Assembly: GCA_029939505.1 (NCBI GenBank) | Contig: JAOZSV010000025.1 | Location: 1-33,623, forward strand | Reading direction: 5' to 3' | Source of the DNA: Thiotrichaceae bacterium | GTDB lineage: Bacteria > Pseudomonadota > Gammaproteobacteria > Beggiatoales > Beggiatoaceae | DNA length: 33,623 nt | Shown: positions 2,126 to 33,486 of the stretch, piece after piece | How the letters are laid out: each line of letters starts with the position of its first letter | Position numbering within the stretch: position 1 is the stretch's first letter | The notes under the pieces: generated by a model | Told to the model about the DNA's origin: nothing | The model's input: only the letters and a program-made list of their open reading frames with translations | Database searches by the model: none | Position numbers and translations under genes: made by a program

Positions 2126-4048
2126 CTAATCCCATTGAAATGGTTTCAAAGCATTGGGGGCTACTTTCAAACCTTGTTTTTCTATGGCTGCTTTGATTGA
2201 TCCCAAGATTTCTCCACCAAATTGAAATGAACCAGAAATATTATCAAGTTCAGTAATAACACTTCCGTCTATTTTTAATGTCCCTGCCCCTCTAGTAGGC
2301 TTATTTCCCCCCAATACTTGAGGATGCATGTGAGGCCCATTTGTAGCAATATGTACCACACTATCTACATCCATTACATAAACATACTCTCCTGACTCTA
2401 CGTTAGATGTTAGTTTAACAGAAGATGAATGTTTTTTGTAAAGAAAATCATCAACAAGAGGTCTTCTTGGTCCAGAACCACCGCAATTGTGAACAAGATA
2501 ACCTTTTTTGCCAACAAAATAATTTTCATTTGTGGCCACTGTAAGATTAAAGACTAGGCCATAAAATGGCCGTTTAATCACATTCTGAACTTTCAATTCT
2601 GTTTTATGCAAAGTAAAAAGGTGATCACCTTTTTTAATTTGATTAGCATGAACCCATCCTTGACCATTTATGTAAAATGGATGTTCAGCAGTAGCCTCAA
2701 TAGTTTCACCATTTTCCAAAATCAGAGTGACAATGGTGTATTCCTGTTCACCTTGAATAAGATTAACAACCTCATTAAATTGTTCTTGTCCAATTTTCTC
2801 ATCATAGGACAAAACGAAGTCACCTATTCTGATTTCCTCAATAGGAATCAAGCCCTGTCTCGTGTGGACTAAGGTACCAACTATGAAACTACTCTTTTTC
2901 TTAGAACTGCAACTACCGCCCAAGCGTAGAAACAATTTTTGTGTGGATTTGTTTAACCTCCCTAAAATAACAAGAGCACCAAGTGCTTTGTCAGTCAGTT
3001 TCTCTGTCACCGCTCCCATAGGATCAGTAACGAAATCAAAGAAATTCAAGGCTTTGTCAATCCGACTCATGGTGCTCAAGATGCTACTAACCGAGTTACC
3101 TGCACTAAAACTGCCCAATGAAAAGTACCCACTCGGATCAACCATATTAACCGGATCAGCATTGCCATACAAATACTTATGCAAGGTAATCGGGTCTTGC
3201 GGAACACCATCAAAGCCATCCATACTCAAAAACCGCCCACTACCTGGATTATAATACCGCGCTCTCAGATAATAATTCCCTGTATTCGGATCAATCTGTT
3301 CACCCGTGTACAGATAATTATTATCCGTTTCACCCGTTTGCTCTAGCAATTCACCAAAAGCGTCATAAGTATAGCTATCTGTGATTTCACTACTTGGGTT
3401 AGTTAGGGTTCGAGTACTGCCTAACCCATCATAATGGTAATAGTTAACCTCATTATCGCGATATTGACTAACCAGATCATCACCATAAAGATAAGCAACC
3501 TTGATTTGATTATCTTGGTCAAGTTCGGCAATCACTTGAGATAAGCTATCATTACTCTCTACGACATATTGAGTGACTTCTCCATCGGCATTGGTTTGAA
3601 CACGGTTGCCATCCGCATCATAAGCATAAGTAACCGTACTTGTCGTTTGACCATTTTCCTCTGTCACCACTTCAATTAAACGGTTATCGCCATCATAGCT
3701 ATAGAGCAAGATATTATCTTCTTCCGCAATCCTAATCGTGTTACCGTTGTTATCATACTGATATTCGACACCACCTTGCTTTTTAAGACGGTCATTAGCG
3801 TCATAAGTGTACTCAGTATGAACTCCATCTTCTATGCTATAAACACGATTACCAACGCTATCATATTGATAACTAAATGAGATTTCACTACCATCAGCCT
3901 TAGTAATTGCTTCATCCTTTAAGCGATAAAGGTCATCATAACGGTAATCAACCACACGACCAGTATGCTCTGTGACTTGAAGACGATGTCCGGTAGGAGC
4001 TAGAGTATATTGGTAACTCGCAAGAAAAAAAAATAGGGGACAGACCAC
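2126..4048 (-). CDS. Orphan (displaced) Rhs core - Hint - toxin tip module
   Basis: From about 4020 down this is the 3' part of an Rhs gene. It has YD repeats, then the Rhs core with YLYGDDLVSQY and RYYNPGSGRFLSMDGF, then the linker PSGYFSLGSFSAG. A Hint domain follows (SSFIVGTLVHT ... HPFY ... GYLVHNCG, about 2480-2890) and then a tip of about 115 residues. Hint position 1 appears to be Ser, not Cys. The tip contains HPQVLGGNKPTRGAGTL and ITELDNISGSF, resembling a GAG...I..N.SGHY motif I recall from other polymorphic-toxin tips; its activity is unknown. The frame opens at a GTG inside a 22-base inverted repeat (4032-4084) with no Shine-Dalgarno, and there is no signal peptide. It is therefore probably a silent cassette that can donate its tip to the homologous full-length gene at 5283-11714. 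It is followed by a candidate immunity gene at 1462-1854. Confidence 0.8.
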   Translation of the reverse strand: MVCPLFFFLASYQYTLAPTGHRLQVTEHTGRVVDYRYDDLYRLKDEAITKADGSEISFSYQYDSVGNRVYSIEDGVHTEYTYDANDRLKKQGGVEYQYDNNGNTIRIAEEDNILLYSYDGDNRLIEVVTEENGQTTSTVTYAYDADGNRVQTNADGEVTQYVVESNDSLSQVIAELDQDNQIKVAYLYGDDLVSQYRDNEVNYYHYDGLGSTRTLTNPSSEITDSYTYDAFGELLEQTGETDNNYLYTGEQIDPNTGNYYLRARYYNPGSGRFLSMDGFDGVPQDPITLHKYLYGNADPVNMVDPSGYFSLGSFSAGNSVSSILSTMSRIDKALNFFDFVTDPMGAVTEKLTDKALGALVILGRLNKSTQKLFLRLGGSCSSKKKSSFIVGTLVHTRQGLIPIEEIRIGDFVLSYDEKIGQEQFNEVVNLIQGEQEYTIVTLILENGETIEATAEHPFYINGQGWVHANQIKKGDHLFTLHKTELKVQNVIKRPFYGLVFNLTVATNENYFVGKKGYLVHNCGGSGPRRPLVDDFLYKKHSSSVKLTSNVESGEYVYVMDVDSVVHIATNGPHMHPQVLGGNKPTRGAGTLKIDGSVITELDNISGSFQFGGEILGSIKAAIEKQGLKVAPNALKPFQWD

Positions 4049-4084
4049 ATTTATTTTCGCATTAAATGTGGTCTGTCCCCTATT
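4032..4084. repeat. REP-like perfect inverted repeat (GGGGACAGACCAC family)
   Basis: Perfect 22-base arms, beginning AATAGGGGACAGACCACATT at 4032 and ending CCCCTATT at 4084, flank a 9-base loop. The sequence resembles REP elements associated with RAYT (TnpA-REP) transposases; no such transposase is in the window. The element sits exactly where the orphan Rhs sequence begins. Confidence 0.85.
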
Positions 4085-5282: not shown

Positions 5283-8200
5283 TTAATTTTTAAGACCATG
5301 AATATTTTGGCAAACGTTGCAATGATCTTTCACTTTGCCACGCGCAGCGTGGCCAGTAGCACCTTTTCTAACCTCATATGACAAAGTCCAAAGTATGCTT
5401 AGAGGGTTTGACCCTGTCCACAAGAGTTTATTAGCTGCACGAAATTCTGAACAACGTCCAATGGTATGAGTTGTACCAAAAGCCTTTTTATCTCCCATAC
5501 AAACTCCCAAAAACTGTAAACGTTTAAGTAGTACTGGGTGTACTGATGAGGGTCCATCACCATTAAATGCTGCTCGTGCTTGAACTTTAACGGGATCATA
5601 TGCAGCACCAACAATATATATCTTTGGTACTTTATTAAGTCGACTATTTGGTGTCTTGTGCAGCAATTTATCCATCGCCTGATATGCCCGGTGTTTCGCT
5701 TTCCGAACTTTATCGCGTTTTTGTTTACATTTGCTTCCTTTTCCTTTATTGTGAACCACCAATTGTTGAGAACCGACCATATAGGTATGCGAATCTTCAA
5801 CTGTTAGGTTGTATACCTCAACATGAGTTGGAAACTTGGAAATACTAATGACTGTTGCCAAATCACCAGTTGCGAGCCGAACATTATCACCTTCTTGTAA
5901 CTCTTGGGCAACTCTCCAAGTCTTATCTTCTAAATAAAAAGGATGATTCAGCGTTGAAGTAATACTTTCGCCAGTGTTAAAAGCAATCTCAAGTAAATCA
6001 TATTGACCCTTTCCACGAATTAGATTGGTTACTTCATGGTATTGATAGGTATCCGTTTCTTCGTCATAACTTAAAACGAAATCTCCTATCTGAATATCTT
6101 GAATAGAAACCAGCCCTTTTTCAGTGGTAACTTGCGTTTCAGCCGTAAAACTATTACAACTAGTGAACAACGTTAGCAACTGATCGGCTGCCTTGCTTTG
6201 ACCTAGCATTCTAAATAAAACAAGGCCCCCACGTGCTCTGTTAGTCAATTTGTCAACGACCGCACCGGCCGGATCAGTCACGAAATCAAGTATATTCAAG
6301 ACTTTGCCAACCCGACTCATGGTGCTCAAGATGCCACCAACCGAATTACCGACACTGAAGCTCCCCAATGAGAAATACCCACTCGGATCAATCATATTAA
6401 CCGGATCAGCATTGCCATACAAATACTTATGCAACGTAATCGGTTCTTGAGCATTCCCATTAAAACTATCCATACTCAGGAAACGACCACTACCAGGATT
6501 ATAATACCTAGCTCTCAGATAATAATTCCCCGTATTCGGATCAATCTGCTCACCCGTATACAGATAATTATTGTCCGTTTCACCAGTCTGCTCTAGCAAT
6601 TCACCAAACGCTTCATAAGTATAGCTATCTGTGATTTCACTACTTGGGTTAGTTAGGGTTCGAGTACTGCCTAACCCATCATAATGGTAATAGTTAACCT
6701 CATTATCGCGATATTGACTAACCAGATCATCACCATAAAGATAAGCAACCTTGATTTGATTATCTTGGTCAAGTTCGGCAATCACTTGAGATAAGCTATC
6801 ATTACTCTCTACGACATATTGAGTGACTTCTCCATCGGCATTGGTTTGAACACGGTTGCCATCCGCATCATAAGCATAAGTAACCGTACTTGTCGTTTGA
6901 CCATTTTCCTCTGTCACCACTTCAATTAAACGGTTATCGCCATCATAGCTATAGAGCAAGATATTATCTTCTTCCGCAATCCTAATCGTGTTACCGTTGT
7001 TATCATACTGATATTCGACACCACCTTGCTTTTTAAGACGGTCATTATCATCATAAGTGTACTCCGTATGAACACCATCTTCTATGCTATAAACACGATT
7101 ACCAACCGCATCATATTGATAACTAAAGGAAACTTCACTGCCATTCGCCGGCGTAATTGCCTCTTCCTTCAAGCGATAAAGGTCATCATAACTGTAATCA
7201 ACCACACGACCCGAATGCTCTGTTATTTGAGTACGATGCCCTGTCGGGGCTAAAGTGTATTGATAACTGGCTAGCAAACTATTATCTGGTTTGCGTGTTT
7301 CCAAGGAGGTCAAGCGGTTAAGCTTATCGTAACCATACTGTGTGGAAGTGCCATTGGCATAGTTCACCTGTTCACGATTGCCCACCGAATCATAGACATA
7401 AATGGTTTCGCCATCAGGTGCTATCACCTTTTGTAATCGAGACAGTGTATCATACTTATACTTCACCTCAGCCACACTACCATTAGGAGCCGTGAACTTC
7501 AATAAAGTCCGATTCCCCAACTTATCATAGCCATACTCTAAAATCGCCTGATTAGGTTTCACTTCCTTAATCAAGCGATGACGGTTGTCATAGCTGTAAT
7601 TCGTTGTTCCTAAAGGGTCAGTCTGAGTTTTACGATTACCAATCACATCGTAAGTAAAGCTTTCCACCCGTCCATCGGCATAAGCGATTTTTAGCAAACG
7701 ATCATTGTTGGGATCGTAGCTAAAAGTCGTTGTTTTTTGATTGAAATCCGTATGACTCAGCAAGTGACCTGTCTTTTTATGGTATGCAAAGGTTTCCGTC
7801 ATGCCTAACGGCAATGTGCGACTGAGAACCCGACCCAATTTGTTGTATGTCCAAGTTGTTGTCTGCTGGTTCGCATCTATTTGACTCAGACGATTACCGA
7901 CTTCGTCATAAGCAAAGCGAGTTTGTACTTGGCTATCATTAAGAAACTTGGCCACTTGAGTCAGGCGAGCTACTTTGTCGTATTCGTACTGGGTTTCCCG
8001 TCCAGCCAAATCTCTCTCACTCACCAAACGCCCACCAAGATCATAAAACTCTTCTTTGACAAGATTATCAGAATAGAGGGTTTTGATACGTCTGTCTAAC
8101 ACATCATACTGATAAGAGATAATGTGATTGTTGGCATCGGTTTCCGAAACCAAGTTGCCATTTTTGTCATAGACAAAAGAGCTTACCTGCCCCAAGGCGT

Positions 8201-11200
8201 TCTTGGTTTCAATCCAGTTGCCCGCTTTATCGTATTTGAACTCGGTCAGATTCCCTTCTTCGTCCAGTTGCGCGATGACATTGCCCACCGCATCATACTT
8301 GATTTGCGTAAAGCGGTTATCCGGGTGAATCACCTTGGTTTGACGATCAAGTTTATCGTATTCATAACGGATGATTTGTCCAGCCGCATCCGTTCTTGAA
8401 AGGAGATTTCCTTCCGCATCAAACGAGCGAGTTTCCTTGGTACCATCTGAATAACGGGTTTCAGTTAGATTACCGTAAACATCATATTTATACTCAGTCC
8501 GCCTTTCTAAGGCATCAATACGAGCCACTTCTTGGCCAAGGATGTTGTATTTCGTTTTGCTGACATTGCCCAAAGCATCAGTGGTTTGAATCAGGCGATT
8601 GCGTTTGTCGTATTTGTAAGAAGTGATTTCTGTAGTTGGATTACCATCGGCACCCGTGCGTTTATGGCTTTCACTGAGTTGATTGCCGTTGTCATCATAG
8701 GTGTAAGTGACGGTGTGACCTAGCGCATCCGTTTCCGTTAGCTTGTTGCCACTTTTATCATAAGTGAACTTGGTGATATGACCTAAAGCATCGCGGGTTT
8801 CCGTGATTAAACCTTTTTCAATGGTATTGACGATTTTGGCATTAGCAAGGGGGAGTCGAATTTCCTTCAAGTTGCCACGATCATCATAATCTATCTCAAA
8901 AGTACTACCTTTCGCGTCAGTCAGCGTGGTTTCTTGGCCCTGTTCATTGTAGGTGAACTTAACGACGTGACCTTCTGGGTCCTTCTCTTCAAGCAGATTA
9001 AACTTATTATCATACTTAAAGAAAGTCGTATTATCCAACGGATCCGTTTCGCTCAATTGATTACCGAAATGATCGTAAGTCGAACGAGTGAGATTGCCTA
9101 ACGGATCAACCAGGCTCGTGACATTACCCCGATCATCGTAATACAGTTGAGTCACTCGCCCAAGACGATCAGTGACGAGGGACTGGCGACCTTCGAGATT
9201 ATGATTGAAATTGGTGCGGTTGCCTTCTGCGTCAAGTTGAGCGATTAATCGACCAGAATCATCATAGATATTTCGCACCTGTTGACGGCCTAACGGGTCT
9301 TGAATATCCGTCATGGCGTGAGTGCGGTTGTAGCTGTAACGCACCGTGTTATCGGTCGCATCAGTGGAAGCGACTAAGTCACCGGCGGCGTTGTATTGAT
9401 ATTTTATTTGGTGACCACTGGAATCGGTGATTTTAGTGATGCGGTCTTGGTTATCACGGGTGAAGAGAACGCTTTTGCCAGCAGAATGAATGATGCCATC
9501 ACGGGTATAAGTCAAAGTATTGCCATTGGGGTCTTTAACATTTTTGATGCCAAACGATTCATCCAATACATATTCATAGCCCGCTTGCGTGGTCAATCTG
9601 TAGCGACTCGGATTGAAGGGTTCGCCCGTCGATAAATCAATCAGATCACGGCTATCAAAGTAAATATCGTCGCTCAGGGCATCCAATGATTCCAGTTTGG
9701 AGAAGGTGCCTTGCTGTGATTGAAATGCCACCACTGGATTAATGGGTCCCCCTTGGAAAATGGGGCCGCATTCCGGTTGTACATGGACATTGAAGGTTTC
9801 AACTTGACCATCTGGCAGCGTCACAGCAACTTGTGGCGAGCCTAATGGTTCGAGACAAAGTTTGCCCATGAAACCGAAGCCGTATTGGTTGAGTATCCAA
9901 TCTTTTCCCGGTATACGCGATTCCTCCACTTTAATACTCTGATAGTTGACGCTCCAACCATGCCCAAAGTCAAGTGCTTGCCCTTTTTGGCGCGTGTCGT
10001 AGGTTCGCAAAACATTGAGGGGCATACCCATCATCGGAATCGACAAGTCTTCTACTGTGAAGGAAAAGTGGCCGACTTTGAGATCACCTGAGACTTTGAT
10101 AACGCGGTCAACCACCGTGGTTTGGTTATTGGCATCCGTCGCGGTCACACGAATATCGTACAGGCCGTTCATAAGCAAACTTGGGTCAAGAGTGCCTAAG
10201 ACATCGTTATTGATTGCACTTGACCCATTGAAAAAAGTGGTATAGCTATTTTTACCACGAGGTGACCAAGCAAGAGTATAACCAATCAGATAAGTATCAG
10301 AAACCGTACCAATAATCTCGGTAGGCGCTGTTATTTCGGCATCTGCTGGGGGAGAAGTCAGCGTCACAACTGGCGGTGTGTGATCATTAGGAGCCGTCAC
10401 CACAAAACGGCTGGATGCTTCCGTCGAATTGCCCTTAGAATCGGTGACAGTCACTTGAATCAGATAAAGGCCAGGCGTGTCGCTGCTGAACTGAGCGTGA
10501 CCTTCAGCATCAACTTCAATGGGGGTACCATTAACGGTCAAAACAATCGTCAAACGGTCAAGCGCAACATCGCTTTCAATGGTGATTGGCAGCGTGTCGC
10601 CTGGTATGACAGTCTCGGCGTGCTTGATTTTGATGACTGGCGGCGGTGTTTGGTTTTCAACGTCATAGAGGATTTGTCGATCACCACTGGGGTAAATGAT
10701 CCGAAAGTCGGCAATACCATCGCCATTGACATCCTCAATCTGTTCCATAATGAGTTTGCCATCAGGAGGTGGTGTCCCTTTGGTGACGAGCTCATCTAAT
10801 TGGCTTTGATGAATTTCCCCATTTTGAGTGATTGTAATCGCACCATCAGGGGTAATCTCAACGGCTTCAACACCTTCAAGGCTTTCAAAATAGGCTCGAA
10901 GGGCCTCTAAGTTAGAGGGAATAGTGCAGGCAATAGGCCAAGCGATACCCTCAATATCATTATAAGGGGTATTAAAACTGGCATCAGCAACGGTTTCGCA
11001 GGTGTCGGCATTATAGGTATGAATAGCCAGTTGCTTGTCGTTGTGGAAACCATAGAGCAACAAGCCATCAGGTAATGTTTCAAGGCTTTCCACTTTTTTG
11101 GGCAAACCGTTACAAGCAACGTTCCAACCTGTGCTATCATACACCCACAGGGTACTCGTTTGCGGATGGTCTGCGGCAACACCATATAAAAGGGTGCCTT

Positions 11201-11714
11201 CCCGATTCCACGCCAGTGCGTAAATGGAGAAAGGTCCAAATTGTTCAAAGGCGTTTTTTTCGGCTTCGGTTTGAGGCCAAATTAAAGTACCCTCTGCTGT
11301 GTCAATATCTAGTTTCAATAGGCCCTGGTCAGCCCAAGCCACTAGACGGCCATCAAAATGAAAGGCCAAACCGACGACGTTGTCAAAGCCAATGTCACCG
11401 ATCAGCTTAGGTTCTCCCGTGTCGCCATCGACTTGGAACAATTGGGCCTCTTTTTTGCCAGAGGCGGCAAAGAGTGAGCGAGTTTGCGGATGGCTATCAA
11501 GGGCCTCAATGTCATAGGCTTCAAGTTTGTCACCTAACGAATTAAAAAGACCTTCTTTTAAGTCGTAAGTGAAAAATTGAGTCTCGGAAACCCCTTCATC
11601 ATGCACTGCATAAACGGTGTTACATTGGGCTGGGGCTTGTGCTTGTGCAGCTTGAAAATGACTTGAAAAGTAAATCAAGCTGAAACAGGCGAAATAAAAT
11701 AGGGTTTTATTCAT
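5283..11714 (-). CDS. Rhs1: secreted YD-repeat polymorphic toxin with Hint domain and deaminase-like tip
   Basis: This encodes 2143 aa. I chose the ATG at 11714 (MNKTLFYFACFSLIYF) over 11723 because AGGAG (11724-11728) is 9 bases away from the former and touches the latter. In order it has a signal peptide to about residue 27 (AAQAQA), a beta-propeller-like region (30-265) and DVNGDGIADF at about 328 (EF-hand/FG-GAP-like). Two Ig-like modules follow (about 350-540), then the Rhs entry segment (DLSIPMMGMPLNVLRTYDT), YD repeats (about 770-1660) and the Rhs core to RYYNPGSGRFLSMD. The Hint domain runs from Ser1855 to His-Asn 1988-1989, and the tip is 1990-2143. The tip has GRC(2088)SE(2090)F and C(2132)NVC(2135), the layout of the nucleic-acid deaminase fold ((H/C)xE plus CxxC zinc ligands), closest in my memory to YwqJ-like deaminases. 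There is no PAAR/VgrG part, so export through Sec followed by an unknown outer-membrane step is more likely than T6SS. Confidence 0.9.
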   Translation of the reverse strand: MNKTLFYFACFSLIYFSSHFQAAQAQAPAQCNTVYAVHDEGVSETQFFTYDLKEGLFNSLGDKLEAYDIEALDSHPQTRSLFAASGKKEAQLFQVDGDTGEPKLIGDIGFDNVVGLAFHFDGRLVAWADQGLLKLDIDTAEGTLIWPQTEAEKNAFEQFGPFSIYALAWNREGTLLYGVAADHPQTSTLWVYDSTGWNVACNGLPKKVESLETLPDGLLLYGFHNDKQLAIHTYNADTCETVADASFNTPYNDIEGIAWPIACTIPSNLEALRAYFESLEGVEAVEITPDGAITITQNGEIHQSQLDELVTKGTPPPDGKLIMEQIEDVNGDGIADFRIIYPSGDRQILYDVENQTPPPVIKIKHAETVIPGDTLPITIESDVALDRLTIVLTVNGTPIEVDAEGHAQFSSDTPGLYLIQVTVTDSKGNSTEASSRFVVTAPNDHTPPVVTLTSPPADAEITAPTEIIGTVSDTYLIGYTLAWSPRGKNSYTTFFNGSSAINNDVLGTLDPSLLMNGLYDIRVTATDANNQTTVVDRVIKVSGDLKVGHFSFTVEDLSIPMMGMPLNVLRTYDTRQKGQALDFGHGWSVNYQSIKVEESRIPGKDWILNQYGFGFMGKLCLEPLGSPQVAVTLPDGQVETFNVHVQPECGPIFQGGPINPVVAFQSQQGTFSKLESLDALSDDIYFDSRDLIDLSTGEPFNPSRYRLTTQAGYEYVLDESFGIKNVKDPNGNTLTYTRDGIIHSAGKSVLFTRDNQDRITKITDSSGHQIKYQYNAAGDLVASTDATDNTVRYSYNRTHAMTDIQDPLGRQQVRNIYDDSGRLIAQLDAEGNRTNFNHNLEGRQSLVTDRLGRVTQLYYDDRGNVTSLVDPLGNLTRSTYDHFGNQLSETDPLDNTTFFKYDNKFNLLEEKDPEGHVVKFTYNEQGQETTLTDAKGSTFEIDYDDRGNLKEIRLPLANAKIVNTIEKGLITETRDALGHITKFTYDKSGNKLTETDALGHTVTYTYDDNGNQLSESHKRTGADGNPTTEITSYKYDKRNRLIQTTDALGNVSKTKYNILGQEVARIDALERRTEYKYDVYGNLTETRYSDGTKETRSFDAEGNLLSRTDAAGQIIRYEYDKLDRQTKVIHPDNRFTQIKYDAVGNVIAQLDEEGNLTEFKYDKAGNWIETKNALGQVSSFVYDKNGNLVSETDANNHIISYQYDVLDRRIKTLYSDNLVKEEFYDLGGRLVSERDLAGRETQYEYDKVARLTQVAKFLNDSQVQTRFAYDEVGNRLSQIDANQQTTTWTYNKLGRVLSRTLPLGMTETFAYHKKTGHLLSHTDFNQKTTTFSYDPNNDRLLKIAYADGRVESFTYDVIGNRKTQTDPLGTTNYSYDNRHRLIKEVKPNQAILEYGYDKLGNRTLLKFTAPNGSVAEVKYKYDTLSRLQKVIAPDGETIYVYDSVGNREQVNYANGTSTQYGYDKLNRLTSLETRKPDNSLLASYQYTLAPTGHRTQITEHSGRVVDYSYDDLYRLKEEAITPANGSEVSFSYQYDAVGNRVYSIEDGVHTEYTYDDNDRLKKQGGVEYQYDNNGNTIRIAEEDNILLYSYDGDNRLIEVVTEENGQTTSTVTYAYDADGNRVQTNADGEVTQYVVESNDSLSQVIAELDQDNQIKVAYLYGDDLVSQYRDNEVNYYHYDGLGSTRTLTNPSSEITDSYTYEAFGELLEQTGETDNNYLYTGEQIDPNTGNYYLRARYYNPGSGRFLSMDSFNGNAQEPITLHKYLYGNADPVNMIDPSGYFSLGSFSVGNSVGGILSTMSRVGKVLNILDFVTDPAGAVVDKLTNRARGGLVLFRMLGQSKAADQLLTLFTSCNSFTAETQVTTEKGLVSIQDIQIGDFVLSYDEETDTYQYHEVTNLIRGKGQYDLLEIAFNTGESITSTLNHPFYLEDKTWRVAQELQEGDNVRLATGDLATVISISKFPTHVEVYNLTVEDSHTYMVGSQQLVVHNKGKGSKCKQKRDKVRKAKHRAYQAMDKLLHKTPNSRLNKVPKIYIVGAAYDPVKVQARAAFNGDGPSSVHPVLLKRLQFLGVCMGDKKAFGTTHTIGRCSEFRAANKLLWTGSNPLSILWTLSYEVRKGATGHAARGKVKDHCNVCQNIHGLKN

Positions 11715-11723
11715 AATTATCAT

Positions 11724-11728
11724 CTCCT
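11724..11728 (-). promoter_or_regulatory. Ribosome binding site deciding the Rhs1 start
   Basis: AGGAG on the minus strand is immediately followed by ATGATAATTATG. Only the second ATG (11714) has usable spacing (9 bases). The same arrangement is at 32285-32289. Confidence 0.75.
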
Positions 11729-11776
11729 AAGAATTAAAGGGTGAGCAAGCAAGCGTCAGGTCACTGCCATTAAGTT

Positions 11777-11819
11777 TTCGAGGTTTGAGTTTTTTTTTCA
11801 AAAAAACTCAAACCTCGAA
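11777..11819. repeat. Hairpin, TCGAGGTTTGAG arms
   Basis: Perfect 20-base arms (11777-11796 and 11800-11819) around TTC: TTCGAGGTTTGAG + T-run, then A-run + CTCAAACCTCGAA. In the second unit a different hairpin (32359-32401) occupies the same place, inside the same TAAGTT...AACTTA frame. Confidence 0.85.
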
Positions 11820-12189
11820 TACTTCCAAATCTAAAGGTTTGGACTCCAAGGCTTAACTTAATGGTATTGAAGCGTCAGGTGGGTCACTTTCTACTAAATC
11901 CACCCTCAAATTGCACTTTCCACCCGTTGATTAAAGATTTAATCAATGGCACAACAATTTTACTGTTTTTATAATAACACATCAAACTTCAAAAATATTT
12001 TTCGCGTTATTTTTTTAAATATTTTCGCATATTGCACCTTATGCCCATCATTTATTTAAAGGCGGTTCATTTTTTTAGGGTAAAATTTTTCTTCAAAAAA
12101 TTTGAAAGCCTCGAATTTTGATTGTGTGGTTGATCAAAAAGGCTTTTGACTCATCGTATTTTCGCCATATAGTTTGTCAGATAAATAAT

Positions 12190-12232
12190 GATCGAGGCGA
12201 AAGTTTTTCTTCAAAAAACTTTCGCCTCGATC
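12190..12232. repeat. Hairpin, GATCGAGGCGAAAG arms
   Basis: Perfect 19-base arms (12190-12208 and 12214-12232). The second unit has only GATCGAGGCGATC at the equivalent place (about 32793-32805), lacking 30 bases that make the hairpin. Confidence 0.85.
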
Positions 12233-12329
12233 ACAAGGGCAGACACGCAGGTCTGCCTCTACAAGTACGTTATTTCATACGATTTCAGGTAGGGGCATTC
12301 GAGGTTTTAGTTTTTCTTCAAAAAACGAA

Positions 12330-12369
12330 ATTCGAGGTTCAAGTTATCGAAAAAACTTGAACCTCGAAT
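12330..12369. repeat. Hairpin, ATTCGAGGTTCAAGTT arms
   Basis: Perfect 16-base arms (12330-12345 and 12354-12369) with an 8-base loop. The same element is present in the second unit at about 32902-32943. Confidence 0.85.
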
Positions 12370-12392
12370 CGAATCCTGTGTGTTCGCCCTGA

Positions 12393-12474
12393 TTGTGATC
12401 GAGGCTAAAGTTTTTTGAAGAAAAACTTTAGTCGAGGCTAATGTTTTTTCTTTAAAAAAAACATTAGCCTCGAC
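12393..12474. repeat. Two abutting hairpins, CTAAAG and CTAATG arms
   Basis: The first hairpin uses CTAAAGTTTTT against AAAAACTTTAG. The second has perfect 19-base arms GTCGAGGCTAATGTTTTTT (12431-12449) and its complement (12456-12474). Both recur in the second unit around 32970-33050. Confidence 0.8.
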
Positions 12475-12792
12475 TCGATCATTATTTATCTGAACATCTA
12501 TATATGGTAAAATAATTACAACGATCACTTAAAATTACCATAAAGATTTTCATCATTTAAACCGTTTTTGCTGAGATGATTATAGCCTAACTTTTTGTTT
12601 TTTAATGAAATTATTAATTTTAACGCCTGCCAAAAGCGGATTTGAATTTAAGTCAATCAAGAGAAAGTTTTAGGCGATAATCTCTGATCCATTGGATAAG
12701 ATATTATTATATCATTGTAAAATGGTGGGCAAGATAAAACTTTGCCCACCCTACCAGGCTACCAGGCTAAGGAATACAAAATAATTTCTACA

Positions 12793-12930
12793 ACGTTGTT
12801 TCAAACCTGTCAGGTTTAGTTGAACGTTGTTTCAAACCTGTCAGGTTTAGTTGAACGTTGTTTCAAACCTGGGTTTAGTTGAACGTTGTTTCAAACCTGA
12901 CAGGTTTTAAAAACCTGTCAGGTTTAGTTA
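12793..12930 (+). repeat. 31-base tandem repeat with AACCTGTCAGGTT palindrome
   Basis: Units start at 12793, 12824, 12855 (3 bases shorter) and 12883 (expanded with an extra palindrome). Each reads ACGTTGTTTCAAACCTG followed by the palindromic TCAGGTTTAGTTGA. The array ends 10 bases before the start codon at 12941. The second unit has one ACGTTGTTT followed by a different hairpin (33454-33486) in its place. Confidence 0.85.
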
Positions 12931-12940
12931 AAGACTCAAA

Positions 12941-14893
12941 ATGAATATTAAAAATTTACCTTCTATTCCTCACCCATTTTTCATTATTACCACATTTTTA
13001 TTATGGCCTTTTGTCAGTTATGCCCTCCTTGATGATATACAAATTGGATTATCACAGCCTTTTCAATTTCCTCTCCATTGGGATAATGTTAAAGAGGCTC
13101 CTGTTTGGGTGGATGGCAAAGCCCCTGAATTTAATAGAGATTGGGGACTGCCCCAAATCACATTAGCCCCGAACGAATTGGTCACTATTTGGTTAGCAGA
13201 GGGACAATGGTTGCGAATTCGTCATCCAAATAAACCTTTTCCGACGGATGCCCTGGACATTTCTGTGTCTTATGGTACGGGATTATATGCTTATATGCCC
13301 ATTTACAGTGCAGAAGAGGGCAAATCTCTCTTGCTGAGCCCTGATTTGAGTCAGTCTCGTTTTGTACGCATCCAGCTTGCGCCTCAACAAAAGGAAAAGG
13401 TTGCAATGGCTTTGTTGACTTCGCGCCATGAAAATCAACGGGATATCGCACCTCAATCTCAGGAAATACCTCTGTCTTCTGAGAGCGTTAAATTACAGTT
13501 TGGATATCAAACGGAAGCGCAGTTGCTTGAGGAAAGATTTTGGCATTTGCCAGCGAACTCGCCGGTGAATGTGACGATAGAAGGACCAATGTCATTGGCA
13601 TTGGAAAGCCGTTTTATTTATCCACCCAGCGAGGCGGTTTTACAGCAAGCTTATCGCCTCTTTGTGACTTTAGATGATGATAATCTGTGGGTGTTGGATT
13701 TTGAAACCAGTGCGGAAAATAATCAATCTATTCATATTAGCGGTAATATACAGGTGTTAGGGCGATTAGAAAAGACTTATTTGAAAATACCGGCGGGGGT
13801 GCATGATGTGCAAATCAATAGTAGCGCGAATTTATTTATTCGTCTCCTTCAACATCTTGAAACGCCCTATTTTTTGCCGGAAATCAATCAACTTAAAGAC
13901 AATCCTTCCCCAGAAGCCACTTGGTTAAATAAGTCAGTATGGCAATTAACAGAGAAAGAGATTTTGACGCTGAAATTGACCCATTTTGATACATTGGCGA
14001 TCATTAAACAACATGCACTGCGTTTGATACGTGATAATAGTCATCGTGAAGGGGGATTATTGGGGGCGATGACAATGCGTGAAGCGGCCAGGCGGCGACC
14101 AGATGAAGCGAGAGTTCGCCAATTTGCTGATAACTTATTAGGGCGATATACCTTTTATCGCAATTTGTTACCAAAACAAGGTAACGGTTCCTTTACATTT
14201 CATCGGTTTATCACTTATCCCTTGCGTGATACAAGACCACGAAAACAACCACTTGTGGTTGCTGAACAACATGTTGAGGCTTATTTAAAACGGATATCAG
14301 GGGCTTATTTTGCGCCCATTCAAAGACAGTATAACCATTATCAACTGCCTAAACGTACCGTTCCAAGCCTATTGCGCGTCATCGTCAAACCACAATCAGA
14401 ACCGCAAATATTTTGGTTACAGTTGGATAATGAAACCCCTGTGCGGATGCGAGTTGAACCTGATATATTTGAAGCGCCTTCTCATTATTATCGTTACGCT
14501 CAAGGTGAAGCGGGATTAAAAACGCTGGCCTTGAAACATCAGACCGATGCCGACACATTGGGCGGTCCTTTTGCCAGTCGGCATAAACTAGGCAGCCTGA
14601 TTGATGCGGCGACTTTTGTCTTTCCTTTACCGCCTGAAGTACAACAAGTGAAATTATGGCAAGCCGGGACAGAAATGTTGCCTGTTGCCCTGCAATATCG
14701 CGCCGCCAAAGTTTACCGTTTAACAGAAACGGAGTATTTGGAAATGATTTCGCACTTCACATCGCCAAAAGACTTATTTAACTATTTTATGACGGTTTTA
14801 CGCGACTATAAAGAAATATCTCCTAACGCTAATTCATACGGGAAAATGGCAACCAACCCCTTTTCCAAGCGTAGGGTGGGTAGGAGTGAATAG
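12941..14893 (+). CDS. Secreted protein of unknown function, copy B, 3' truncated
   Basis: This encodes 650 aa with a clear Sec signal peptide (MNIKNLPSIPHPFFIITTFL...WPFVSYA, cleavage near residue 29). The mature part begins LLDDIQIGLSQPFQFPL. The rest is a beta-rich region to about residue 320, then a helical basic stretch (LGAMTMREAARRRPDEARVR), then a part shared with copy A. The last residues (NPFSKRRVGRSE) come from an inserted GTAGGGTGGG repeat: copy A continues MATAFHPFSSKRTTAERELYN where this copy stops, so the TPR-like C-terminal third is missing. No Shine-Dalgarno is visible; the sequence AAAGACTCAAAATG at the start is shared with copy D. It is divergent from Rhs1 and always found with an Rhs gene here. 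It could assist Rhs export or surface display, but this rests only on the linkage. Confidence 0.75.
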   Translation: MNIKNLPSIPHPFFIITTFLLWPFVSYALLDDIQIGLSQPFQFPLHWDNVKEAPVWVDGKAPEFNRDWGLPQITLAPNELVTIWLAEGQWLRIRHPNKPFPTDALDISVSYGTGLYAYMPIYSAEEGKSLLLSPDLSQSRFVRIQLAPQQKEKVAMALLTSRHENQRDIAPQSQEIPLSSESVKLQFGYQTEAQLLEERFWHLPANSPVNVTIEGPMSLALESRFIYPPSEAVLQQAYRLFVTLDDDNLWVLDFETSAENNQSIHISGNIQVLGRLEKTYLKIPAGVHDVQINSSANLFIRLLQHLETPYFLPEINQLKDNPSPEATWLNKSVWQLTEKEILTLKLTHFDTLAIIKQHALRLIRDNSHREGGLLGAMTMREAARRRPDEARVRQFADNLLGRYTFYRNLLPKQGNGSFTFHRFITYPLRDTRPRKQPLVVAEQHVEAYLKRISGAYFAPIQRQYNHYQLPKRTVPSLLRVIVKPQSEPQIFWLQLDNETPVRMRVEPDIFEAPSHYYRYAQGEAGLKTLALKHQTDADTLGGPFASRHKLGSLIDAATFVFPLPPEVQQVKLWQAGTEMLPVALQYRAAKVYRLTETEYLEMISHFTSPKDLFNYFMTVLRDYKEISPNANSYGKMATNPFSKRRVGRSE

Positions 14894-15151
14894 TCATGTA
14901 GGGTGGGCAAAGTCCTTTGATTGCCCACCTTCCTCATTAAAAAAGTGGTGGGCAATAAAAAGACGTTGCCTACCCTACATGGCTACTTGAGGCTTTAAGT
15001 TGATTTGGAGAAGGGGTTTTTTGAGATTTTACCCTTTTGCCGGTCGGTGGGCAACCACGTTGCCCACCCTACCTGGCTATTTTTTTCACAAATTGGGTTG
15101 TGTATGTCATTGCCATAATGGTGCATGACGCTATCGCTTATGCACCCTACG
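14871..15151. repeat. Cluster of GTAGGGTGGGCAA and GGTGCATGACGC palindromic repeats
   Basis: At least three GTAGGGTGGGCAA / TTGCCCACCCTAC arms (about 14871-14930, 14945-14982, 15045-15072) are followed by a GGTGCATGACGCTATCGC arm (about 15121-15151). They fill the space between truncated copy B and the LRR gene; no gene is seen from 14894 to 15217. The first arm supplies the stop of copy B. Confidence 0.7.
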
Positions 15152-20742: not shown

Positions 20743-21302
20743 AAGTGGACAGAGATTGCACGGGAGAGTCAGGGCGATTTACATCATCAAGCGCAATTAG
20801 CCAGGGCAGAATTGCTGGAACAATTGGGCGACGTTTTTTTAGCAACGCGCCTATTACAGCGTCTATTTCTAGGCACTGATCCACTCTTATCCCAAAAGGC
20901 TTATGATAAGTTATTGAAAAATAAAGAAAAAACAAAGAGTGCGCTATTACCCCTATTAGCGACAGCCGTATTGCGCTCAGAAACCGAATTTTCAGAAACC
21001 GAGTTTTTTCAAAAAACTCGGTTTCTAAACATATTAATTCAACTCATTCACGTTTTAATAGAAAAAGGCTATCAAAATGAAGCATTTATGCTCGGTTTGA
21101 TCAGGCCCCCAACGCAACGCCCTCATGCTTTGATGATAGAACTCGCTTATCATTCAAGTTGGTGGCAAACGTTTACGGCACTTCTCTGGTTTCTCTCAGA
21201 CGAAAAGCAACAATTATGGCTTGGTTTCAAAGCGCAAGATAAAGGAAATTATGCGGCGGCTATCAACTTTTGGCGTGATGCGGGTGCAGAAGGGCTCACA
21301 TA
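20743..21302 (+). pseudogene. Secreted TPR-like protein, copy C: internal fragment
   Basis: Codons from 20743 read KWTEIARESQGDLHHQAQLA, matching EKWTAIAQGSQGDLHHQAQL of copy A, and run without a frameshift through MLGLIRPPTQRPHALMIELA to DAGAEGLT and a stop near 21303. Copy A continues GLKFAHALKKGIEI, so this copy has lost both ends. It keeps the short in-frame hairpin (20994-21026), encoding ETEFFQKTRF, and shows what copy A looked like before its second hairpin. With no start or signal peptide it should not make a functional protein. Confidence 0.8.
20994..21026. repeat. Perfect hairpin inside a coding sequence, AGAAACCGAG arms
   Basis: Sixteen-base arms (20994-21009 and 21011-21026) surround a single C. 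The inserted stretch is in frame, encoding ETEFFQKTRF. The element at 33454-33486 is the same except for a paired G-to-A / C-to-T change. Confidence 0.9.
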
Positions 21303-29300: not shown

Positions 29301-32275
29301 ATAGGATTTCCGTCATTGTTATAACTAAATGACATAATGAGTTTACCACGCCCATTGAGGATGGCAGTGGCTTGTTTAGCACTGTCATAGATTGGCTCAA
29401 AAATATGACCCGCTGGATCGGTTGCCTTGAGTAGATTGCCTTGCGTGTCATAAGACATTTCTAACACATTATCATTGGGGTATTCTTCCCTTAAGAGATT
29501 GTTATGGTTATCGTAAGCACTTTTCGTGATGTGACCTTCTGGGTCTTTTTTAGTCAAAACGTTCCCATGGGCATCATAAGTGTACTTGGTGGTATGGCCG
29601 AATGGATCAGTGCGACTTAATTCATTCCCATTTGCATCGTAATCATGATAAGTCACATGACCTTTTGCATCAATTTCTGTGACTATTTTACCTTTATCAT
29701 CATAAACGTAAGTCGTCGCAAATCCACGACGATCACGAATGATCTCCTCACGCCCTTCGATATCATGATTAAAATGGATGTGGTTACCTTCTGCGTCAAT
29801 TTGAGCAATTAATCTGCCAGAATCGTCATAGAGGTTCCGCACCATTTTGCGGCCTAACGGGTCTTGAATATCCGTCATGGCGTGGGTGCTATTGTAGCTG
29901 TAACCTACCGTGTTGCCGATCGCATCGCTGGAAGCAATTAAGTCACCAGCAGTGTTGTATTCATATTTCAATGAGTTGCCATTCGGATCAGTGATTTTGG
30001 TAATACGATCCGAACTATCACGGGTGAACTGGACACTTTTGCCAGCAGAATGAATGATGCCATCCTTGCTATAAGTCAAAGTATGGCCGTTAGGGTCTTT
30101 TACTTGACGGATACCAAAGTCCTGTTCCAATTCATATTGGTAGCCTGCTTGAGTCGTTAACCGATAGCGATTGGGATTGACAGATTGACCAGTCGATAGA
30201 TAAATCAGATCATTCCCATCAAAAAGGATAAAACCCAGAGCATCTAATGATTCCAGTTTGGAGAAGGTGCCTTGCTGTGATTGAAATACCACCACTGGAT
30301 TAATGGGTCCCCCTTGGAAAATGGGGCCGCATTCCGGTTGTACATGGACATTGAAGGTTTCAACTTGACCATCTGGCAGCGTCACAGCAACTTGTGGCGA
30401 GCCTAATGGTTCGAGACAAAGTTTGCCCATGAAACCGAAGCCGTATTGGTTGAGTATCCAATCTTTTCCCGGTATACGCGATTCCTCCACTTTAATACTC
30501 TGATAGTTGACGCTCCAACCATGCCCAAAGTCAAGTGCTTGCCCTTTTTGGCGCGTGTCGTAGGTTCGCAAAACATTGAGGGGCATACCCATCATCGGAA
30601 TCGACAAGTCTTCTACTGTGAAGGAAAAGTGGCCGACTTTGAGATCACCTGAGACTTTGATAACGCGGTCAACCACCGTGGTTTGGTTATTGGCATCCGT
30701 CGCGGTCACACGAATATCGTACAGGCCGTTCATAAGCAAACTTGGGTCAAGAGTGCCTAAGACATCGTTATTGATTGCACTTGACCCATTGAAAAAAGTG
30801 GTATAGCTATTTTTACCACGAGGTGACCAAGCAAGAGTATAACCAATCAGATAAGTATCAGAAACCGTACCAATAATCTCGGTAGGCGCTGTTATTTCGG
30901 CATCTGCTGGGGGAGAAGTCAGCGTCACAACTGGCGGTGTGTGATCATTAGGAGCCGTCACCACAAAACGGCTGGATGCTTCCGTCGAATTGCCCTTAGA
31001 ATCGGTGACAGTCACTTGAATCAGATAAAGGCCAGGCGTGTCGCTGCTGAACTGAGCGTGACCTTCAGCATCAACTTCAATGGGGGTACCATTAACGGTC
31101 AAAACAATCGTCAAACGGTCAAGCGCAACATCGCTTTCAATGGTGATTGGCAGCGTGTCGCCTGGTATGACAGTCTCGGCGTGCTTGATTTTGATGACTG
31201 GCGGCGGTGTTTGGTTTTCAACGTCATAGAGGATTTGTCGATCACCACTGGGGTAAATGATCCGAAAGTCGGCAATACCATCGCCATTGACATCCTCAAT
31301 CTGTTCCATAATGAGTTTGCCATCAGGAGGTGGTGTCCCTTTGGTGACGAGCTCATCTAATTGGCTTTGATGAATTTCCCCATTTTGAGTGATTGTAATC
31401 GCACCATCAGGGGTAATCTCAACGGCTTCAACACCTTCAAGGCTTTCAAAATAGGCTCGAAGGGCCTCTAAGTTAGAGGGAATAGTGCAGGCAATAGGCC
31501 AAGCGATACCCTCAATATCATTGTAAGGGGTATTAAAACGGGCATCGGCAACGGTTTCACATCGGTTGGCATTATAGGTATGAATACCCAGTTGCTTGTC
31601 GTTGTGAAAACCATAGAGCAACAAGTCATCAGGCAATGTCTCAAGGCTCTCCACTTTTTTGGGCAAACCTTTACAAGCAACGTTCCAACCCGTGCTATCA
31701 TACACCCACAGGGTACTCGCCTGCGGATTGTCAGCGGCAACACCATACAAAAGGGTGCCTTCCCGATTCCACGCCAGTGCGTAAATGGAGAAAGGCCCAA
31801 ATTGTTCAAAGGCGTTTTTTTCGGCTTCGGTTTGGGGCCAAATTAAAGTACCCTCTGCTGTGTCAATATCCAGTTCCAACAAGCCTTGGTCTGACCAAGC
31901 CACTAGACGACCATCAAAATGAAAGGCCAAACCGACGACGTTGTCAAAGCCAATGTCACCGATCAGCTTAGGTTCTCCCGTGTCGCCATCGACTTGGAAC
32001 AATTGGGCCTCTTTTTTGCCAGAGGCGGCAAAGAGTGAGCGAGTTTGCGGATGGCTATCAAGGGCCTCAATGTCATAGGCTTCAAGTTTGTCACCTAACG
32101 AATTAAAAAGACCTTCTTTTAAGTCGTAAGTGAAAAATTGAGTCTCGGAAACCCCTTCATCATGCACTGCATAAACGGTGTTACATTGGGCTGGGGCTTG
32201 TGCTTGTGCAGCTTGAAAATGACTTGAAAAGTAAATCAAGCTGAAACAGGCGAAATAAAATAGGGTTTTATTCAT
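26354..32275 (-). CDS. Rhs2: secreted YD-repeat polymorphic toxin with permuted papain-like tip A
   Basis: This encodes 1973 aa, starting at 32275 for the same reason as Rhs1 (AGGAG at 32285-32289, 9 bases away). The N-terminal two thousand bases are almost identical to Rhs1: signal peptide (AAQAQA), propeller-like region, DVNGDGIADF, Ig-like modules and Rhs entry segment. The YD-repeat cage then diverges, and the core reads YTYGNDLLRQKR to RYYNPSRGRFLTSDTW. There is no Hint domain; the tip follows PTGHMS at about residue 1769. The tip carries AHHFVFVE with His1823-His1824, GAGWRYDIA, and RWNC(1952)QNWTRFAL. His before Cys, with the Cys in an NCQxW/NCExF-like motif, is the order in permuted NlpC/P60-LRAT enzymes (peptidase, amidase or acyltransferase). 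That assignment is inference from motifs. Candidate immunity A follows. Confidence 0.9.
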   Translation of the reverse strand: MNKTLFYFACFSLIYFSSHFQAAQAQAPAQCNTVYAVHDEGVSETQFFTYDLKEGLFNSLGDKLEAYDIEALDSHPQTRSLFAASGKKEAQLFQVDGDTGEPKLIGDIGFDNVVGLAFHFDGRLVAWSDQGLLELDIDTAEGTLIWPQTEAEKNAFEQFGPFSIYALAWNREGTLLYGVAADNPQASTLWVYDSTGWNVACKGLPKKVESLETLPDDLLLYGFHNDKQLGIHTYNANRCETVADARFNTPYNDIEGIAWPIACTIPSNLEALRAYFESLEGVEAVEITPDGAITITQNGEIHQSQLDELVTKGTPPPDGKLIMEQIEDVNGDGIADFRIIYPSGDRQILYDVENQTPPPVIKIKHAETVIPGDTLPITIESDVALDRLTIVLTVNGTPIEVDAEGHAQFSSDTPGLYLIQVTVTDSKGNSTEASSRFVVTAPNDHTPPVVTLTSPPADAEITAPTEIIGTVSDTYLIGYTLAWSPRGKNSYTTFFNGSSAINNDVLGTLDPSLLMNGLYDIRVTATDANNQTTVVDRVIKVSGDLKVGHFSFTVEDLSIPMMGMPLNVLRTYDTRQKGQALDFGHGWSVNYQSIKVEESRIPGKDWILNQYGFGFMGKLCLEPLGSPQVAVTLPDGQVETFNVHVQPECGPIFQGGPINPVVVFQSQQGTFSKLESLDALGFILFDGNDLIYLSTGQSVNPNRYRLTTQAGYQYELEQDFGIRQVKDPNGHTLTYSKDGIIHSAGKSVQFTRDSSDRITKITDPNGNSLKYEYNTAGDLIASSDAIGNTVGYSYNSTHAMTDIQDPLGRKMVRNLYDDSGRLIAQIDAEGNHIHFNHDIEGREEIIRDRRGFATTYVYDDKGKIVTEIDAKGHVTYHDYDANGNELSRTDPFGHTTKYTYDAHGNVLTKKDPEGHITKSAYDNHNNLLREEYPNDNVLEMSYDTQGNLLKATDPAGHIFEPIYDSAKQATAILNGRGKLIMSFSYNNDGNPISQTDSLGNVTHITYDKNGNELSQLKTRTGADGNPVSFLSTTVYDADGKPTKITDVAGYVTQTEYNAASQVVATVDKNGHRTTFEYDIQGRLIKTNYPDDTSTSSMYDANDNQISFTDRQGQTTQYRYDYQNRLVETLLPDKTSTSREYDAVGQVLAEVDANGNRTTFEYGKGEQPVKITDALGQSIQLTYDGIGNRTSVTDASGQTIRFEYDGVGRPTQVIYADNTFTQVVYDDLGRRVQDVDRAGQVTRYEYDAVGHLTKVIDAEGGETSYLYDEVGNVISETDALDHTTSWTYDNLGRPLSRTLPLNMTETFTYEGNGNVLTHTNFNGDTISYSYDSNNRLVMETYPDESIIGYTYTKNGLPATITDSRGVTHYSYDVHNQLVKVVHPEGATLEYGYDANGNRTFVTTSSGQTTYTYDKLNRLSSVTNSDEGVTSYVYDVVGNLTRVTRPNGTITVYHYDTSNQLVKLEHLNSDISVIGSYEYTLNVLGYPIQVIEPNGRIVAYTYDKLGRLIQEDITDPINGDLTLAYSYDAVSNRVAIQVDGVVIGRYNYDANNRLLTAGDHSYSYDANGNTLTQNGPEGTTTYGYDLKNRLVNVTTPNDSMAYVYDTDGIRIGSTLNEVATHYLVDKNRPYAQVLEERSSENDLLASYTYGNDLLRQKRGSENRYFHYDRLGSTKGLTDDNQTVTDVYHYDAFGNPLQINGATLNHYRFTGEQHDQQTGLIYLRARYYNPSRGRFLTSDTWQGQRDQPITLHKYLYANGNPVVFVDPTGHMSLTSLNATFQIMGHLARTSMLKLARYIIKNKLKGKKFDVFKGTSGIRNVTKAPAHHFVFVEHTLLKVGRSRKPLVGAGWRYDIATFRPRTVVQRKQFKCELLNAFVLGGEKPSTRYNATLMKNDTTRKQIHTGNEMFVPGHLKKKAEAKFTYMQYFLWEMTVYFPYAYEDGKTFLYSFKDRWNCQNWTRFALWNARLIQKMRVYP
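26962..27535 (-). repeat. Rhs core homology block, full-length gene copy
   Basis: Partner of 24275-24848. It ends at the tip boundary (DPTGHMS) on one side and at GYDLKN on the other, so a single crossover here would replace tip A by tip B and delete candidate immunity A. Confidence 0.85.
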
Positions 32276-32284
32276 AATTATCAT

Positions 32285-32289
32285 CTCCT
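32285..32289 (-). promoter_or_regulatory. Ribosome binding site deciding the Rhs2 start
   Basis: AGGAG lies 9 bases before the ATG at 32275 and directly touches the ATG at 32284. Identical to the Rhs1 site. Confidence 0.75.
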
Positions 32290-32358
32290 AAGAATTAAAG
32301 GGTGAGCAAGCAAGCGTCAGGTCAATGCCATTAAGTTAAGCCAGGGCGAACACGCAGG

Positions 32359-32401
32359 ATTCGAGGCTAATGTTTTTCTTCAAAAAACATTAGCCTCGAA
32401 T
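32359..32401. repeat. Hairpin, ATTCGAGGCTAATG arms
   Basis: Perfect 19-base arms (32359-32377 and 32383-32401) around CTTCA. It is at the same site as the TCGAGGTTTGAG hairpin of the first unit. Confidence 0.85.
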
Positions 32402-33453
32402 GCCCCTACAATCACATCATACACGGGGTTTTGTAGGGGCAGACCTGCGTGTCTGCCCTTAACTTAATGGCATTGAAGCGTCAGGTGGGTCACTTTCTAC
32501 TAAATCCACCCTCAAATTGCACTTTCCACCCGTTGATTAAAGATTTAATCAATGGCACAAAAATTTTACTGTTTTTATAATAACACATCAAACTTCAAAA
32601 ACATTCATTTTTTAGCGTTATTTTTTTAAATATTTTCGCATATTGCACCTTATGCCCATCAATTAAAGGCGGTTCATTTTTTTAGGGTAAAATTTTCAAA
32701 AAACTCGAAAGCCTCGAATTTTGATTGTGTGGTTGATCAAAAAGGCTTTTGATTAATCGTATTTTCGCCCTATAGTTTGTCAGATAAATAATGATCGAGG
32801 CGATCACAAGGGCAGACACGCAGGTCTGCCCCTACAAGTACGTTATTTCATACGATTTCAGGTAGGGGCATTCGAGGTTTGAGTTTTTCTTCAAAAAACG
32901 AAATTCGAGGTTCAAGTTATCGAAAAAACTTGAACCTCGAATCGAATCCTGTGTGTTCGCCCTGATTGTGATCGAGGCTAAAGTTTTTTGAAGAAAAACT
33001 TTAGTCGAGGCTAATGTTTTTTCTTTAAAAAAAACATTAGCCTCGACTCGATCATTATTTATCTGAACATCTATATATGGTAAAATAATTACAACGATCA
33101 CTTAAAATTACCATAAAGATTTTCATCATTTAAACCGTTTTTGCTGAGATGATTATAGCCTAACTTTTTGTTTTTTAATGAAATTATTAATTTTAACGCC
33201 TGCCAAAAGCGGATTTGAATTTAAGTCAATCAAGAGAAAGTTTTAGGCGATAATCTCTGATCCATTGGATAAGATATTATTATATCATTGTAAAATGCCG
33301 TTGCACGATAAAACTTTGCCCACCCTACCAGGCTCCTGTTTATACTCACCGCGTTTTGGATGAAATAGTCAATATTTTGTTATTGAACTAAGGAATATAA
33401 AATAATTTCTACAACGTTGTTTTAGTCTATCGTTTTTCAGATAAATACGGAAA

Positions 33454-33486
33454 AGAAACCAAGTTTTTTCAAAAAACTTGGTTTCT
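33454..33486. repeat. Perfect hairpin, AGAAACCAAG arms
   Basis: Sixteen-base arms around a single C. It differs from 20994-21026 only by one base pair in the stem, changed on both arms. It stands where the first unit has the 31-base tandem array, just before the secreted-protein start. Confidence 0.9.

Follow-up and report, generated by a model that had tools for sequence, protein, structure and literature searches.

Cyanobacteria have small dispersed repeats, tiny mobile sequences that, like the hairpins described here, become inserted in other repeats. REP and REPIN sequences, which are associated with RAYT proteins, are palindromes of 20-40 bp that are intergenic, non-autonomous, and present in hundreds of copies (PMC3733652, PMC3116915). 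Very short mobile hairpins with no known mover include the GC42 mitochondrial GC clusters of yeast, for which putative AG/ACT duplications have been reported (PMC4478555), the RHE of sponges and the DHE of Allomyces (PMC2800124), and the palindromes of Volvox (PMC2670323). Template switching in replication has been reported to cause compensatory changes in stems and to invert loops while the stem is kept, the switches having been inferred in rRNA and other RNA genes (PMC8794818). In Ca. Thiomargarita nelsonii, which belongs to the same family as the bacterium studied here, MITEs and palindromic repeats of unknown nature have been reported; the accessible part of that report describes a MITE in hupL with direct repeats and a build different from that of our hairpins, and contains no description of a TCGAGG hairpin family, of its empty sites, or of covariation (PMC4853749).

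The TCGAGG hairpins analysed here resemble each of these systems in part. They have the small size, high copy number, intergenic location, and non-autonomous character of REP sequences, but they lack the GTAG or CGTC tag (their flanks are symmetric, with no fixed one-sided tetranucleotide), have symmetric ends, replace about 3 bp of target, display extreme arm covariation, and have no matching RAYT gene flanked by the repeat. In contrast with the mitochondrial GC clusters and the other hairpin elements, they reside on a bacterial chromosome, their target is lost, and loop flips and two-sided changes are found at homologous sites. They share two-sided stem changes and loop inversion with the template-switched RNA hairpins, but here the affected sequence is a DNA repeat, scattered through each genome in about 1000 copies.

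Hairpins in the window

The window, that is, the whole 33,623-nucleotide stretch that was analysed, belongs, as contig C186, to a genome of 5.58 Mb in 497 contigs from a giant sulfur bacterium, which its close relatives in the same genus place in the family Beggiatoaceae. It contains 13 perfect hairpins with arms of at least 12 bases and loops of at most 12, while five order-3 Markov shuffles gave 0, 0, 2, 0, and 0. The relevant features are the following.

746-772: AGAAACCGAG-type hairpin whose right arm was lost to the insertion at 773; one-base loop G
773-812: ATTCGATG hairpin, perfect, inserted in 746-772; replaces the GTT of the paralogous copy near 21015-21030
11777-11819: TCGAGG hairpin, perfect; arm type TTTGAG, loop TTC
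12189-12233: TCGAGG hairpin, perfect; arm type CGAAAG, loop CTTCA; replaces the TTC of an empty repeat found in loci L135, L020, and L022
12299-12329: TCGAGG hairpin with unmatched arms (left TTTTAG, right CGAA), interrupted by the nested hairpin at 12330
12330-12369: nested TTCAAG hairpin, perfect; loop ATCGAAAA; sits in the right arm of 12299-12329
12398-12429: CTAAAG hairpin without its right end, disrupted by the insertion at 12430; L135 has an intact counterpart (98.9% identity)
12430-12475: nested CTAATG hairpin, perfect; loop CTTTAA; has taken the place of GCC in the host arm
20994-21026: AGAAACCGAG hairpin, perfect; loop C, flipped relative to 746-772; uninterrupted paralogue of 746-812
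32359-32401: CTAATG hairpin, perfect; loop CTTCA; replaces the TTC of an empty repeat
32872-32902: duplicate of 12299-12329; left arm TTTGAG instead of TTTTAG, right arm the same, hence a one-sided change
32903-32942: duplicate of the nested hairpin 12330-12369
33003-33048: duplicate of the nested hairpin 12430-12475, identical to it
33454-33486: AGAAACCAAG hairpin, perfect; locus unrelated to that of 20994

Seven of the nine hairpins listed in a preliminary description of this DNA were directly confirmed as perfect (those starting at 773, 11777, 12189, 12330, 20994, 32359, and 33454). Its entry 12393-12474 resolves into the broken hairpin 12398-12429 and the perfect one inserted in it, and its entry 752-772 is a remnant of the 746-772 hairpin cut short by the insertion at 773. 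Absent from that list were 32903-32942, 33003-33048, and 12893-12925, the latter being of another palindrome family.

That palindrome, AAACCTGACAGGTTTT-A-AAAACCTGTCAGGTTT, represents a third high-copy family, with 78 copies in the sampled loci, often in tandem. A perfect hairpin with 22-bp arms at 4032-4084, AATAGGGGACAGACCACATTTA around TTTTCGCAT, is unrelated to the others. The window is also repetitive on a larger scale. Two large Rhs-repeat genes have in common a 2.6 kb stretch (9187-11776 and 29751-32337) with 94% identity, and the gene at 5283-11723, the one of the two that was scanned, has a pretoxin HINT domain at its C-terminus. Between genes, the block 12228-12760 has a second copy at 32801-33334 with 98.7% identity. 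Dispersed repeats of 90-130 bp (1324-1455, 1991-2086, 14892-14984, and 14985-15079) fill intergenic regions; they have many copies in two genomes of the same genus, Thiomargarita sp. RS_2_10 (JAGLHR01) and Gammaproteobacteria B20_G6 from Guaymas (QNES01), and one of them is 99% identical between species.

Copy number and host range

The preliminary description had proposed a hairpin family, and a genome-wide search bore this out far beyond the window. The form TCGAGG-N6-T5..loop..A5-N6'-CCTCGA, in which TCGAGG, the T and A runs, and a few stem bases were fixed and four positions per arm left free, occurs 943 times in the genome, versus none for a reversed control pattern; for the T6C..A6 core the counts were 577+930 versus 33+22 for the reversed pattern. 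Thiomargarita sp. RS_2_10 has 569 TCGAGG hairpins, B20_G6 has 23, and five other Beggiatoaceae members have 1-11, with zero in the remaining relatives; Ca. Parabeggiatoa HSG14 carries them too. Over 360 further genomes of the class gave none, and no copy was found in IMG/VR. A narrower pattern run against a species-level genome collection gave matches confined to Beggiatoaceae-type records. We read the hairpins as palindromic mobile elements of Beggiatoaceae that are non-autonomous and very short, at about 40-47 bp, with about 1000 per genome. Detailed comparisons of loci were carried out on about 0.85 Mb of the 5.58 Mb genome, sampled in stretches.

Empty and filled sites

The main fact, that each hairpin appears to be a mobile insertion replacing about 3 bp, had not been seen in the preliminary description. 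Empty counterparts were found for 70 hairpins, which fall into 32 clusters of independent sites. The hairpin has taken the place of exactly 3 bp in 18 clusters, 2 bp in 4, 4 bp in 4, and 5 bp in 2; the remaining clusters comprise three large or disturbed cases and one within a tandem repeat. No target-site duplication was found at any clean site of the 32 clusters. For instance, CACGCAGG-TTC-GCCCC (empty) corresponds to CACGCAGG-(ATTCGAGG..CCTCGAAT)-GCCCC (filled), and CTAAAGG-TTT-GGACTCC to CTAAAGG-(ATTCGAGG..CCTCGAAT)-GGACTCC. The direction of the change is taken to be insertion because the empty forms are themselves multi-copy, internally palindromic repeats, such as GGGCGAACACGCAGG-TTC-GCCC. 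In the window, the replacement is directly visible for four insertions, at 773-812 (GTT), 12189-12233 (TTC), 12430-12475 (GCC, inside a hairpin), and 32359-32401 (TTC). The comparisons show that copies with an empty counterpart are insertions that replace about 3 bp without target duplication, 3 bp being the mode and not a rule, and they make mobility of the hairpins well supported.

The targets comprise other repeats, genes, and other hairpins. One regular expression retrieved 12 nested composites, and the same composite recurs in different flanks. TTCAAG hairpins with unusual loops lie repeatedly in the right arm of TTTGAG or TTTTAG hairpins, at the same position and in different flanks (loci L009, L015, L017, L022, L067, L112, L137, L141, and L145), as if the composite had moved as a unit. 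A longer inverted-repeat element ending in TGTACAGGACATTTTTT is found twice inside or beside TCGAGG hairpins (L009:864-1227 and L020:2358). In 81 non-redundant sites, the base exactly four positions outward from TCGA is preferentially G/C on either side, the fifth A/T, and the seventh T/A, and A accounts for only 3% at the fourth base in the right-hand reading. These preferences keep register with the hairpin rather than with the midpoint of the 3 bp that it replaced.

Covariation of the arms

In 850 kb of the genome, 194 of 208 strictly anchored hairpins are paired at all six inner arm positions, and at least 16 arm types are found. So that pairing would not be preselected, hairpins were also anchored by the left arm only, each then being counted once per strand. 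Among the 537 left-arm matches with the A-run in place, 397 pair at 13 of 13 positions and 46 at 12 of 13, while 45 perfect hairpins are expected if right arms are shuffled among hairpins. In a set of 60 distinct arm pairs, chosen from 109 with nested-insertion rows left out and therefore more selected than the 537, 95.4% of cells are paired versus 79.5% after shuffling, two-sided changes affect 11 of the 13 stem pairs, and 107 cells are changed on both sides versus 33 after shuffling. None of 500 shuffles equalled the observed value on any covariation measure, and pairing drops to 53% or less in slid controls. One-sided standard pairs of the G-U type account for 8 cells, against the 107 two-sided ones.

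The proposal that the arms covary holds on these measures. That they always pair perfectly was too strong a statement, since about 74% of left-arm-anchored copies are perfect and about a quarter are imperfect, truncated, or interrupted, with two window copies broken by nested insertions. The hairpins at 20994 and 33454 do differ by a single compensated base pair, as had been noted, but they are two separate copies and not a change in place, because their flanks are unrelated. A pattern in which the loop equals part of the arm (TAAAG in CTAAAG, TAACG in CTAACG) was considered and dropped, as loops are common to several arm types.

Changes at homologous sites

Changes in place were sought in copies whose two flanks each contain at least 28 identical bases, with a mean identity of 92%. 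In the 42 resulting pairs, from 31 clusters, two-sided change with preserved pairing affects 12 stem positions and one-sided change affects 7, while 0.15 two-sided changes are expected under independent change at the observed rate. The change in the window pair 12299/32872 is one-sided as well. CTAACG in L155:16884 and CTAATG in the window copy 32359-32401 are the same insertion with one pair changed on both sides and the loop unchanged, and a single compensated base pair is likewise the only difference within the hairpins at L009:1140 and L164:19251, whose loops agree.

The loop is exactly inverted in 6 of the 31 clusters. L146:5042 and L146:8609 have inverted loops between flanks identical at 64 of 64 bases on both sides, the loop CGGAG of L217:664 is CTCCG in L218:5521, which belongs to another genus, and the G loop of 746-772 corresponds to C in its paralogue 20994-21026. 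Loop inversion and joint two-sided stem change at homologous sites are both shown by these alignments. Stems changed at 2.8% per side versus about 8% in the flanks, which fits homogenization or recent spread better than free drift, and which copying alone does not predict. Some targets, such as GGAG-TCC-AACG, carry several arm types.

Genomic placement and search for a mover

Only 24 of 236 hairpins lie within predicted ORFs, which cover 75% of the sequence, so that about 90% of copies are outside. Intergenic copies lie between convergent genes in 14% of cases, tandem genes in 63%, and divergent genes in 23%, versus 17, 58, and 25% for random positions. No terminator-like placement was found in this comparison, and a search of Rfam gave no match to the hairpins. 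A placement that is poor in ORFs and otherwise random points to insertions that have been purged from genes, and not to terminators.

A linked transposase or reverse transcriptase, envisaged in the preliminary description, was sought and none was found. The numbers of Y1 transposase, reverse transcriptase, and PDDEXK_2 genes do not track the number of hairpins and are as high in hairpin-free relatives; genomes with zero hairpins have 7 Y1 genes. In low-copy relatives, the genes beside hairpins encode common kinds of protein (Radical SAM, cNMP-binding, AAA, Rhs, NlpC/P60), and no enzyme recurs among them. In 0.49 Mb of the 5.58 Mb genome, no solitary arms were found as the ends of an autonomous element; the search recovered hairpin copies that were nested or decayed, and mosaics that included other repeats.

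RAYT-like genes are present in the genome, and their neighbours are AGAAATCC or unrelated hairpins. One of them has about 100 bp upstream a AGAAATCC hairpin, conserved in a congener, which belongs to a family different from the TCGAGG hairpins; in Thiomargarita sp. RS_2_10, a TCGAGG hairpin lies only distantly downstream of a RAYT-like gene. A second hairpin family, TTAGAAATCCGATTTTT..AAAAATCGGATTTCTAA, has hundreds of copies in this genome and far fewer in congeners. At L059:8815-8851 and L062:3775-3811, it lies upstream, by about 100 bp, of a RAYT-like gene with almost the same sequence here and in Thiomargarita sp. RS_2_10. It may be the REP of that RAYT, the two positions counting as one shared locus and not as two independent cases. 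The AGAAATCC, AACCTGACAGG, and GCCTTGAAAT palindromes were also examined for empty sites, of which few were informative.

Origin of the hairpins and of their covariation

We propose that the hairpins are mobile elements that replace about 3 bp, are moved in trans by an enzyme, and have their arms kept paired by copying of one arm from the other, an explanation to which we assign as a whole a probability of roughly 0.62. One arm would periodically be rewritten from the other by fold-back template switching, intrastrand or across the fork, during replication; such rewriting would flip the loop, repair mismatches in the stem, and carry a new mutation to both arms. Because the fold and the ends are constant while arm and loop sequences vary, the enzyme would probably recognize the folded hairpin rather than a fixed sequence, in a single-strand mechanism. 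The preliminary description had left a choice between selection and arm copying, and the loop flips with unchanged stems and the two-sided changes better support the latter.

Arm-on-arm copying is the likeliest cause of the covariation; its main rival is ectopic gene conversion or repeated insertion at hotspots, by which whole mobile hairpins would be swapped as units with no arm copying, and both processes may act. Exchange of this kind, doubtful as the full account, would explain why arm and loop types are modular and common to many sites and why one target may have several arm types, and the hairpins at L009:1140 and L164:19251 are both of existing arm and loop combinations. However, the single-pair changes with identical cores and near-identical flanks (L155 versus 32359-32401, L009 versus L164) demand a very similar donor each time, as does the loop flip in otherwise identical surroundings in L146, and intermediates with mismatched arms do occur (8 of the 23 hairpins of B20_G6). 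Selection for a function of the hairpin as an RNA stem, a terminator, or a protein site, followed by compensatory substitutions, would account for the strong covariation, for stems that change less than flanks, and for the preponderance of copies outside predicted ORFs. It is nevertheless a very improbable explanation, with little to support an RNA or terminator role: there is no convergent-gene enrichment, a terminator needs its T-run after the stem while here it is inside, G-U or one-sided cells that would be intermediates are very few, hairpins are inserted in genes and in other hairpins, and an Rfam match is absent.

As small, high-copy intergenic palindromes in a genome that has RAYT-like genes, one with a hairpin close upstream, the elements might be taken for classical REP sequences moved by a RAYT, a Y1 tyrosine transposase. 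This appears improbable, though, in view of the missing tag, the symmetric ends, the different family of the hairpin beside the RAYT gene, the independence of Y1 gene number from hairpin number, and the replacement of the target rather than simple insertion. Standard DDE transposition does not fit a loss of about 3 bp without duplication. That the hairpins are ordinary MITEs derived from DDE transposons, or else assembly artefacts at palindromes, is the most improbable of these readings, even if other MITE-like repeats with inverted ends abound in the genome and MITEs have been reported in Ca. Thiomargarita nelsonii (PMC4853749). No transposon with these ends was found in the examined loci, and the 32 empty-site clusters have a modal loss of 3 bp, with no duplication at any clean site. 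An ordinary read is longer than a hairpin of about 45 bp, and assemblies made independently contain the same hairpin types.

We file the TCGAGG hairpins with palindromic miniature mobile elements, with which they share dispersed copies in empty and filled sites, and outside the REP and MITE families, because the tag and cognate RAYT of REP sequences and the target-site duplication of MITEs were looked for and not found. Their inverted loops and compensated stem changes at homologous sites are those of hairpins maintained by template switching. More tentatively, and with the odds against it, they might represent a separate class of mobile DNA. Such an element would travel as a single strand folded into a hairpin, exchange itself for three target bases, and stay recognizable by rewriting arm from arm as the DNA replicates; the fold alone would be inherited, and the arm sequence could drift freely.

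Implications

A functional RNA stem is ordinarily proved by covariation, and here about 1000 hairpins per genome covary strongly, apparently through copying and transposition and not through RNA function. The hairpins make template switching and the correction of one hairpin arm by the other measurable within one bacterial genome, and the signature left at the target, about 3 bp replaced with no duplication, provides a handle for seeking the mover.
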